A stretch of 36,468 bases of DNA from Candidatus Competibacteraceae bacterium. Lineage in GTDB: Bacteria; Pseudomonadota; Gammaproteobacteria; Competibacterales; Competibacteraceae. The notes under the pieces were generated by a model that worked only from the letters and a program-made list of their open reading frames with translations, was not told where the DNA came from and made no database searches. This document shows, in pieces, positions 34,575 through 36,467 of this stretch. The stretch is taken from contig RXIX01000023.1 of the NCBI GenBank assembly GCA_003989075.1, positions 1-36,468 of the forward strand. Reading direction: 5' to 3'. The translations under genes were made by a program, and so were the position numbers. How positions within the stretch are numbered: the stretch's first letter is position 1; each line of letters starts with the position of its first letter.

Positions 34575-35924
34575 ATGGACTGGAACCGTCTGCTCTCCCG
34601 CGCCCGCCCGGGTCTGTCCCATCAGCAGCCCGACAGCGAGGCGCGCACCGACTTTCAACGCGACTTTGACCGCATCGTCTTTTCCTCGGCATTTCGCCGC
34701 CTGCAGGACAAGACCCAGGTCTTCCCGCTCTCGCAGAGCGATTACGTCCGCACCCGCCTGACTCACAGCCTGGAAGTGTCCAGCGTTGGCCGCTCGCTCG
34801 GCACCCTGGTGGGCGATTGTGTGATTCGCCGCCACGAACTCAGGAATGTTGACCCGCAGGACTTTGGCGCGGTAGTGGCTGCCGCCTGTCTGGCGCACGA
34901 CATTGGCAATCCGCCCTTTGGTCACGCGGGCGAGGATGCGATTCGGCTGTGGTTCACCCATTCGCTGAACGGTCAGGCGTTGCTGGAGCAGTTGGATGCG
35001 CCCGAGCAGCAGGATTTCATCCGCTTTGAAGGCAACGCCCAGGGGTTCCGCATCATCAGTCGCCTGCAAAGTCCGGACAATCGCGGCGGCATGCAACTGA
35101 CCTGCGCTACGCTCGGCACCTTCACCAAGTATCCGCGCGCGGCCTGGCTGGCCGATGAGCGGCTGCCTGGCATCGCGTTCAAGAAATTCGGCTTTTATCA
35201 GGATGACCGCGATCTGTTCACCGAGGTTGCCGGACTGCTCGGTCTGGAGCCGGTCGGTTCGGATGCCTGGAGCCGTCACCCGCTCGCCTATCTGCTGGAA
35301 GCCGCCGACGATATCTGTTACCGGATCATTGATGTCGAGGATGCCTTCCGCCAGCAGCAACTGCCTTATGAACAGGTGCGCGATCTGCTGTTGCCGCTGA
35401 GTGGTGATCCCGATCGTGCCCGGCGCAAGCTGGCGCACATCACCCGGCCCAAGGAGCATATCGAGTATCTGCGCGCCAAGGCCATTGGCACGATCATCGA
35501 TCAGGTGCATTGCTGTTTCATGGATCATGAGGATGCGATTCTTGCCGGTCAGTTTCCGGATGAGTTGCTCGACAGGATTCCCGCTGCCGAGGCCATGCGT
35601 GCCCTCAAGGCCTGTGGCGAGCAGCAGGTGTATGTGTGCAAGCCGGTGGTGGAAGTGGAAGCGGCTGGTTTCGAGGTGTTGGGTGGTTTGCTGGAGGCGT
35701 TTGTGACCACGGTGAATGACATCGCCGCGCGCGGTGGGCAGGCGTCGCCCAAGAGCCGCATGCTGATTCATCTGGTGCCGGAGCAGTTTCTTGGTCCTGG
35801 GCGTGTGCCGCATGTTGATCTTTATCGGCGGGTATTGGCCGTGACCGATTTTGTATCCGGCATGACCGATTCCTATGCGGTGGCGCTGTTTAAGAAACTG
35901 ACGGGCATGTCGCTGCCGAATTGA
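34575..35924 (+). CDS. dgt: dGTP triphosphohydrolase-like HD-domain dNTPase
   Basis: A 449-residue HD-superfamily enzyme that splits a dNTP into nucleoside and tripolyphosphate, helping balance dNTP pools. The metal-site residues include His64 (RTRLTHSLEV) and the HD pair His108-Asp109 (CLAHDIGNPPFGHAGE), with a later Asp in AADDICYRIIDVEDA. FDRIVFSSAFRRLQDKTQVFPL is the usual N-terminal family signature. The ATG at 34575 (MDWNRLLSRARPG) is preferred; one 36 bases upstream would add residues unlike the family start. E. coli Dgt is 505 residues, and this length fits the broader dNTPase group. A strong terminator follows 34 bases after the stop. Confidence 0.94.
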   Translation: MDWNRLLSRARPGLSHQQPDSEARTDFQRDFDRIVFSSAFRRLQDKTQVFPLSQSDYVRTRLTHSLEVSSVGRSLGTLVGDCVIRRHELRNVDPQDFGAVVAAACLAHDIGNPPFGHAGEDAIRLWFTHSLNGQALLEQLDAPEQQDFIRFEGNAQGFRIISRLQSPDNRGGMQLTCATLGTFTKYPRAAWLADERLPGIAFKKFGFYQDDRDLFTEVAGLLGLEPVGSDAWSRHPLAYLLEAADDICYRIIDVEDAFRQQQLPYEQVRDLLLPLSGDPDRARRKLAHITRPKEHIEYLRAKAIGTIIDQVHCCFMDHEDAILAGQFPDELLDRIPAAEAMRALKACGEQQVYVCKPVVEVEAAGFEVLGGLLEAFVTTVNDIAARGGQASPKSRMLIHLVPEQFLGPGRVPHVDLYRRVLAVTDFVSGMTDSYAVALFKKLTGMSLPN

Positions 35925-35981: not shown

Positions 35982-36215
35982 GTGGGTGCCTCTTTGCCTG
36001 TTGCGGTTGATTCTTCGGGGTATATCGCCATTTCCCGGTTTTTTGGGAGTCTCACCGAGTAGACGTTTTGGCGTGTTGGCGGGGGTTGAGTGTGTAGATA
36101 TCTGCATCTACTTGCCAGCCTGTTGTCACTTCATTGGTGTTTTTTATTTTACCCATCAGGCTCTTGAGTAGGTTTCGTATCTTCAAGGATGTAAAGTATC
36201 GCTACTGAACAACCG
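35982..36215. other. Gene-free region between the dgt terminator and the MITE
   Basis: These 234 bases are more AT-rich than the coding regions. A 71-residue frame crosses the terminator and runs through here, but it has no ribosome-binding site and no protein-like pattern. A 6-bp hairpin (GTAGAT/ATCTAC, 36094-36111) is the only small structure noticed. The last five bases (AACCG, 36211-36215) are the left copy of the target duplication of the next element. Confidence 0.5.
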
Positions 36216-36397
36216 CAGGACTTTCGCTTACCTGACTTTTTCCGTCATACCTTCGCCCTGAGCCTGTCGAAGGACGCGAAAGCGGGTATCCATTCTTTTC
36301 AAAAAGTTACTGGATTCCCGCATACGCGGGAATGACGAAAAGCGCAAGTCCCGTATATTAGAAAATCAATGAGATGAAACACCAAGCGAAAGTCCTG
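36216..36397. mobile_element. MITE-like element, 182 bp, 14-bp terminal inverted repeats, 5-bp target duplication
   Basis: The ends are perfect inverted repeats: CAGGACTTTCGCTT at 36216-36229 and AAGCGAAAGTCCTG at 36384-36397. AACCG occurs directly outside both ends (36211-36215 and 36398-36402), as expected for a 5-bp target-site duplication. No transposase is encoded. Inside are nested palindromes: CGTCAT (36243-36248) with ATGACG (36332-36337), GCGGGTATCCA (36282-36292) with TGGATTCCCGC (36311-36321), the small hairpin CCTTCG/CGAAGG (36250-36273), and ATTCCCGC/GCGGGAAT (36314-36333). The last two are short palindromes commonly seen between genes in many proteobacteria. The insertion sequence that moves it cannot be named from here. 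Confidence 0.82.
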
Positions 36398-36467
36398 AAC
36401 CGTTTGTTTTGAAAAGCCCGGCTGGCTTTTCACGATAGGCGCTGTTCTGTTCCTCCAGCTCAGGAAT
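36366..36467 (-). CDS. Possible 3' end of a gene running in from the right edge
   Basis: One minus-strand frame is open from the window edge for 33 codons to a TGA at 36368-36366. Its first part (IPELEEQNSAYREKPAG) looks protein-like. The frame crosses the hairpin at 36411-36431 and ends inside the MITE, so the element would have supplied the stop. A second frame is also open here, so this is tentative. Confidence 0.18.
   Translation of the reverse strand: MPELEEQNSAYREKPAGLFKTNGSGLSLGVSSH
36411..36431 (-). terminator. Hairpin with terminator-like symmetry near the right edge
   Basis: GAAAAGCC (36411-36418) and GGCTTTTC (36424-36431) form a perfect 8-bp stem with a 5-base loop. Read on the minus strand it has the A-stem-T form of a bidirectional terminator and could end a gene lying beyond the window edge. 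On the plus strand no gene ends here. Confidence 0.45.

Follow-up and report, generated by a model that had tools for sequence, protein, structure and literature searches.

Two kinds of short repeat come closest to the element described here. Bacterial MITEs, among them NEMIS, Nezha and others in the part of the literature drawn on here (PMC3733652) as well as MITEAba12, are non-coding, shorter than 300 bp and bounded by terminal inverted repeats. CGTC-tagged REPs have stems of 8 or 9 bp, loops of 4 or 5 nt and, in most cases, CCA tails, are mostly arranged as HH dimers, and are present in five phyla, according to the sections of the survey used here (Di Nocera et al., 2013; PMC3733652). The same sections describe them as not associated with transposase genes and without a dedicated transposase, and ask whether their mobility is due to RAYTs or to other transposases (Di Nocera et al., 2013; PMC3733652). 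The element analysed here shares with bacterial MITEs the features listed above and, further, is flanked by target duplications, exists in many copies and has a parent IS that can be identified. In place of an IS remnant, however, it encloses a CGTC REP pair, which is spread across Proteobacteria and is also found between other ends.

The window, the whole stretch of 36,468 nucleotides of Candidatus Competibacteraceae DNA that was analysed, belongs to a 3.40-Mb genome in 278 contigs (G000). It carries a 182-bp element at 36216-36397, 3′ of an ORF ending at 35924, and contig C23 ends 66 bp past the right AACCG copy (Table 1). The first-pass annotation had described perfect 14-bp inverted termini with an AACCG duplication, around a core of nested palindromes with an interrupted left arm and an intact right arm; the ends (14/14 bp), the duplication and the nested structure are all present as it claimed. 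What it had missed is a third, partly decayed terminus and, outside it, 44 bp resembling an IS end. The left arm consists of CGTCATACC, 23 bp and CGCGAAAGCGGGTATCCA, while the right arm, TGGATTCCCGCATACGCGGGAATGACG, is unbroken. The element has no coding capacity: it overlaps four frames of 20 aa or more, of which the longest (55 aa) enters from outside. Within the window the terminus pattern is weakly unusual, with 6 matches at up to 3 mismatches vs 2.4 expected.

Table 1. Features of the 182-bp element and its flanks (positions in the window)
Feature	Position	Strand	Basis
Target duplication AACCG, left copy	36211..36215	.	sequence
Left terminal inverted repeat CAGGACTTTCGCTT	36216..36229	+	inverted match to right end
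Left CGTC-tagged REP, CGTCATACC...CGCGAAAGCGGGTATCCA, split by 23-bp insert	36243..36292	+	sequence; copy comparison
23-bp insert TTCGCCCTGAGCCTGTCGAAGGA, single unit of a separate dispersed palindromic repeat	36252..36274	.	genome matches
Right CGTC-tagged REP TGGATTCCCGCATACGCGGGAATGACG, intact	36311..36337	-	sequence
Inner terminus AAGCGCAAGTCCCG, partly decayed (2 mismatches)	36340..36353	-	equals right end of 115-bp short form
44 bp like left end of IS701-family element, terminal inverted repeat included	36354..36397	-	40/44 identical
Right terminal inverted repeat	36384..36397	-	inverted match to left end
Target duplication AACCG, right copy	36398..36402	.	sequence

Across G000 the terminus matches at up to 2 mismatches number 61 + 56, vs 15 + 5 for a reversed-pattern control, which excludes chance ends at the level of the genome. 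Paired ends were read from loci fetched via the element and its ends, a part of all genome matches, and give 40 rows, or 39 distinct elements once one overlapping reading is removed; the further copies of the ends anticipated by the first-pass annotation are thus many. Seventeen of the 40 rows are 115 bp long, 10 are 159-160 bp, and the others range from 117 to 415 bp. An exact 5-bp duplication flanks 24 of the 39 rows with both flanks, equivalent to 23 of 38 distinct copies, and is found in 2 of 1521 mismatched flank pairs; the duplications looked for at other copies are therefore present at most of them and absent from 15 of the 38. A chance inverted repeat as the source of the window element is ruled out by this copy number and these duplications. 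An origin as a plasmid or phage element was rejected, as searches of 72,556 plasmid and 50,697 phage records at E 1e-5 gave no match.

At least one CGTC REP is found in 38 of the 39 copies and exactly two in 31, and the sole copy lacking a REP is a 295-bp deletion derivative of an IS. The 44-bp IS end is present in 12 of the MITE copies, including that of the window. The 23-bp palindrome in the left REP occurs in the window copy only (1/39); among the other 38 copies, 37 contain two or more REPs and the insert is found in none. The repeat to which the insert belongs is dispersed, with 29 matches at up to 2 mismatches in G000, 94 in G034, one in G007 and none in G014 or G025 (reversed control, 0). 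At a separate locus, L062 (G000:C139:2565-2704), a 30-bp tandem array of the CCCTTCGACAGGCTCAGGGCGAACGGGTCT repeat, of the same repeat family as the 23-bp insert, adjoins a MITE-like core without termini.

The full insertion sequence sharing these termini, which the first-pass annotation had proposed to look for, lies in the same genome at G000:C20:36143-37222. It is 1080 bp long with perfect 14-bp ends, and its ORF encodes 341 aa when read from a TTG and 333 aa when read from an ATG. The 333-residue protein is assigned to the IS701 family by the NCBIfam model NF049921 (transpos_IS701_2; 364 bits vs a cut-off of 250), and Pfam DDE_5 and DDE_Tnp_1 both score over cut-off, while three acidic motifs fit a putative DDE triad by position. 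Over its final 44 bp the window element agrees with the left end of this IS at 40/44 positions. The 295-bp derivative (L066:531-825, G000:C90) has an internal deletion and retains both ends of the IS701-family element. Relatives of full length, 1067-1096 bp with (C/T)AGGACTTTCGC ends, are found in G014, G028 and G020 and at locus L138, and locus L136 has the ends and length of the G028 copy. Five of the six loci encoding relatives of the transposase are from Candidatus Competibacteraceae or Candidatus Contendobacter, and the sixth is labelled only Proteobacteria. The IS701 family usually generates a duplication of 4 bp, and the ISAba11 type is reported with 5 bp. The IS of G000 and its relatives agree with the family in the transposase model (NF049921), well over cut-off, and in a length of about 1.07-1.1 kb, and share their ends with the MITE, but would differ in a 5-bp duplication, which is seen at the MITEs and at one of five distinct full-length IS copies (AGAAT, in G014) and is absent from the other four; the intact single IS copy of G000 has flanks without a 5-bp duplication.

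Because there is a family of copies, with 5-bp duplications, an IS with matching termini and a 44-bp match to the left end of that IS, we conclude that the window element is a MITE of an IS701-family element, with the inverted ends, target duplication, multiple copies and parent with the same ends by which such elements are recognised. It is very probably a chimera with a CGTC REP pair, moved in trans by the IS701-family transposase of the same genome. We infer that this DDE transposase would bind the 14-bp ends of the MITE, excise or copy it, and insert it at 5-bp staggered sites. The chimera has an inverted CGTC REP pair in the middle, and its right 44 bp would come from the left end of the IS, on the side of the transposase promoter.

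The 115-bp short form consists of an end, a CGTC REP, a spacer, an inverted CGTC REP and an end. It is probably ancestral, since G007, G034 and G025 show the short architecture in the loci read, and the 159/160-bp long form would then have arisen by gain of the IS end. The long form keeps a visible right end of the short form (AAGCGCAAGTCCCG, 36340-36353), followed by the 44 IS-like bp, and we infer that a short MITE sat beside or within an IS end and took this end over. The window copy would last have gained the 23-bp palindrome unit within its left REP. The nested palindrome is as the first-pass annotation described it, refined to a later event in this one copy of the 39.

It is also conceivable, if improbable, that the hairpins act on RNA, as a terminator or mRNA stabiliser between genes, and that the element persists for this reason, its mobility being past history. 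Folding of the element strand is far stronger than that of shuffled sequence (z -6.0), as very stable hairpins would have it, and of the 27 copies (among 39) that were examined, 22 overlap ATG-started frames of 150 aa or longer by 40 bp at most. The exact duplications and perfect ends, however, point to recent movement, and the orientations of the neighbouring genes are mixed, although this last point comes from an unreliable script that took the nearest long frame, an antisense one for the window copy.

The core of the element matches a CGTC REP dimer, with the CGTC tag, an 8-bp stem, a 4-nt loop, a CCA tail and HH orientation, the left REP being split in the window copy. The likeness to the HH dimers in the sections used here of Di Nocera et al. 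(2013) covers tag, stem, loop, tail and the placement of the tags outside, while the difference is that here the dimer is embedded in a transposon with a duplication. A strict REP-pair pattern has 23 matches in the whole G000 genome (reversed control, 0), and the 72-bp core is matched in 45 of 398 genomes drawn from the phylum, G000 included. In a test with one locus per genome, which excluded 4 further loci with extra REPs and 5 that did not match the pattern, the inverted repeat around the pair is significant in 1 of 17 distant genomes. The REP pair is therefore widespread on its own, as its core occurs in distant genomes without these ends.

Two inverted REPs are also the architecture of a REPIN, which raises the very improbable alternative that the pair is moved by a RAYT (a Y1 transposase) and that the IS701-like ends have no part in this. 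Of the 38 genomes searched, 26 contain Y1 transposases (PF01797, to which RAYTs belong). Against this, no CGTC REP at up to 3 mismatches lies within up to 1.5 kb on each side of any of the 30 Y1 loci fetched, a part of all Y1 matches in the 38 genomes, and the 5-bp duplications flank the IS701-like ends. The absence at Y1 loci is in line with what the sections used here of Di Nocera et al. (2013; PMC3733652) report. We rejected a RAYT-borne REPIN on the absence of the REP from 30/30 fetched loci, and retain the IS701-family transposase as the candidate mover.

The same REP pair is found between other transposon ends in related genomes. We assigned end types around 101 distinct strict dimers, a part of the whole-genome counts (43 in G007, 166 in G145, 9 in G109 and 15 in G084), in a test that is partly circular because these very data had served to define the end patterns by eye; shuffled flanks match at 0 to 0.7% per flank. 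Type A ends (IS701-like) are on both sides of 20/23 strict dimers in G000, 6/7 in G034 and 13/21 in G007. Type B ends (TACCGTTTCCCGATAG) enclose 2/21 in G007, 4/13 in G014 and 1/2 in G025, type C ends (TACTGCGCACGG) 7/20 in G145, type D ends (AACCG...) 5/7 in G109 and 2/20 in G145, and type F ends 1/7 in G109, with no recognised end type around the dimers of G081 (0/2) or G084 (0/6). Type B is flanked by 3-bp TNA duplications in 10/10 rows (9 distinct; mismatched control 28/90), type C by a 2-bp TA duplication in 7/8 (control 49/56) and type D likewise in 3/4 (control 9/12); the single type F element is without a 5-bp duplication. Singly, the TNA and TA duplications say little, since they are short and their mismatched controls are high, the target sequence itself being fixed. 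It is therefore the ends, not the duplications, that carry the argument for several transposons. As observations in their own right, possible further ends around the REP pair are TGAGAATGGCRCCTG, GTAACCGTTCA and CACTGCCATTAAGTTAAGG, at L157 (G093), L275 (G109), and L122 and L129 (G014).

A consensus-free inverted-repeat test, which kept 71 pairs (47 dropped for extra REPs, 4 too short, and 5 of 29 phylum loci without a match to the relaxed pattern), places 24/71 over the 99% point of a cross-genome control. The genomes standing out are G000 (9/12), G109 (4/7), G034 (3/6) and G007 (6/13), with little or nothing in G145 (1/7), G014 (0/8), G025 (0/1) and the distant genomes (1/17). The test thus backs type A in G000, G034 and G007 and types D/F in G109, but not the ends in G014 and G025, with one case in G145. 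In an earlier pairwise test 4/97 pairs exceed the threshold of 19.3, which came from a cross-genome null distorted by flanks containing further REPs. Capture of the REP pair by several transposons is supported and not universal, and since few genomes stood out it is not the general state of CGTC REPs. The first-pass annotation had suggested that widespread intergenic repeats were captured between transposable termini, and the core is indeed present in other Proteobacteria in the absence of these ends and, in relatives, lies between different termini; what is added is that the right end is itself a fragment of the parent IS.

The REP pair may be a passenger, or it may be a mobile unit that inserted into MITEs. 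In the latter case a mobile CGTC REP pair with a preference for palindromes would have entered older MITEs instead of being captured, which we consider rather unlikely. The CGTC-1 dimers of H. neapolitanus are described as sitting within 41-bp palindromes (Di Nocera et al., 2013; PMC3733652, in the sections used here), and the same pair is found inside several unrelated ends. However, no pair-less MITE is present among the 39 G000 copies, which were found via the element and its ends and so do not represent all end pairs, the 295-bp IS derivative being the only one without a REP. To our knowledge, there is no mover of the CGTC REP pair itself.

Six of the G000 MITE copies carry extra REP-plus-filler units: four of 175 bp, one of 174 bp and one 415-bp array. 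The distance from REP start to REP start is 60 bp in the 175-bp forms and 61 bp in the 174-bp form. The latter (L063:549-722, G000:C187) has the same termini, three REPs and a different spacer. The array (L061:522-936, G000:C125:5221-5635) is a 415-bp MITE copy with internal 60-bp units of the same REP and filler and 7 REPs; it resembles a Porphyromonas gingivalis MITE with an internal minisatellite, as far as the part of that report used here goes (PMC4596501), in having tandem repeats inside, and differs in that its tandem unit is a REP plus filler.

Direct REP pairs 41-71 bp apart have 130 matches in 10 of 47 genomes (reversed control, 0). Pairs at fixed spacings (60-62 and 65-66 bp) with mostly unique fillers are seen in G084, G145, G093, G117 and G000 (loci L312-L351, L061, L063, L065, L069 and L070). 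Of the 32 matches in G084, 20 are pairs at 60-61 bp and 12 belong to short-period arrays; those in G145, 60 in all, comprise 15 at 61 bp, 12 at 66, 7 at 65, 21 at 41 (with one filler common to all) and 5 others; and G093 has 5 at 61-62 bp. Spacings in G000 are less regular (58, 60, 61, 62 and 63 bp), and the pairs in G007, G014, G105, G117, G435 and G029 include other spacings. Simple tandem duplication of REP-filler-REP units is mostly rejected, as the fillers differ and the 115-bp G000 form lacks the units; we accept it for the 60-bp array in L061 and for G000:C8:7888-8203.

The boundaries of the duplicated stretch were read from the agreement between the two copies, leaving out pairs whose filler holds CCCGC, one 66-bp G145 pair among them. 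They are sharply defined wherever pairs are numerous enough. In the 61-bp pairs of G084 (n = 19; REPs identical, 18 distinct fillers), the copies agree at +1 and +2 in 16 each, at +3 in 2, at +4 in 6 and at -1 in 7, which gives a 28-bp duplication and a 33-bp insert. The 66-bp pairs of G145 (n = 5) agree in 5/5 at -3 to -1 and +1 to +3 and in 1/5 at -4 and at +4, which gives 32 + 34; the 61-bp pairs (n = 13, REPs identical in 11) agree at -1 in 12 and at +1 and +2 in 11, which gives 29 + 32.

In the part of the literature used here, type I-E integration in Escherichia coli lengthens the array by 61 bp, made up of a 28-bp repeat and a 33-bp spacer, and non-canonical spacer integration is known in this species (PMC11788318, the latter citing Nivala et al., 2018). 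A fixed duplication with a fixed insert at the REPs fits the geometry of CRISPR adaptation, with 28 + 33 = 61 in G084 as in type I-E. The 32 + 34 pattern we take to resemble type I-C, and 28 + 32 type I-F. Perhaps, then, and we lean slightly against it, the CGTC REPs are natural stray landing sites of CRISPR spacer integration, the result then being spread by transposon ends. In G093 a CRISPR array of 23 repeats with a 61-bp period (L383:9446-10833, G093:C13) shares its stretch with a cas1 match. The duplicated REP unit of G084 aligns best to the repeat of this array when kept in the same register, at 14-17/28, with at most 11/28 at shifts of up to 6. The G084 fillers are 46% G+C vs 35% for the genome, and a self origin was rejected for them, as none of the 19 recurs over more than 14 nt outside REP pairs in the 513,316 bases covered, roughly a third of that genome.

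Several results weaken the CRISPR reading. Direct REP pairs occur in 10 genomes, and among these Cas1 is detected in G000, G007, G014, G029 and G093 but not in G084, G145, G117, G105 or G435; overall there is no association (5/10 vs 15/37 of genomes without such pairs). The operon of G000 (L382, G000:C2:12000-30000), with cas1, cas2, cas4, cas3, Cas5b and Cas7/Csh2, is of type I-B by score, the Cas7 Csh2 and Cas5b models being over cut-off; this type does not fit 28 + 32, and no CRISPR array was found in that stretch. Nor was a source of any insert found in the searches made: 36 fillers have no match at E 1 among 50,697 phage records, and five filler 22-mers have no exact match in IMG/VR.

The kind of element, a MITE, is known; its combination with a CGTC REP pair, repeated with other ends, is new to us. 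In the open-licence literature, none of the matches listed describes CGTC REPs within IS-ended MITEs, spacer-like insertions in REPs, or REPs as a natural target of non-canonical spacer integration. The parts used here of a 2025 REP survey (PMC12306157), a 2024 MITE review (PMC10969869) and a Pseudomonas aeruginosa CRISPR paper (PMC11687729) hold nothing on IS-ended REP MITEs or on spacer insertion at REPs. If the CRISPR reading were true, REPs would seed CRISPR-like units scattered over the genome and would naturally attract stray spacer integration, a point that touches on the origin of new CRISPR arrays. With a REP pair inside a transposon that has fresh duplications, and a candidate enzyme in the same genome, the question left by Di Nocera et al. 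(2013) becomes a simple assay. In other genomes the same REP pair is present within differently ended elements, and since REP pairs lie within at least three kinds of transposon ends, CGTC REPs would have a way to spread.
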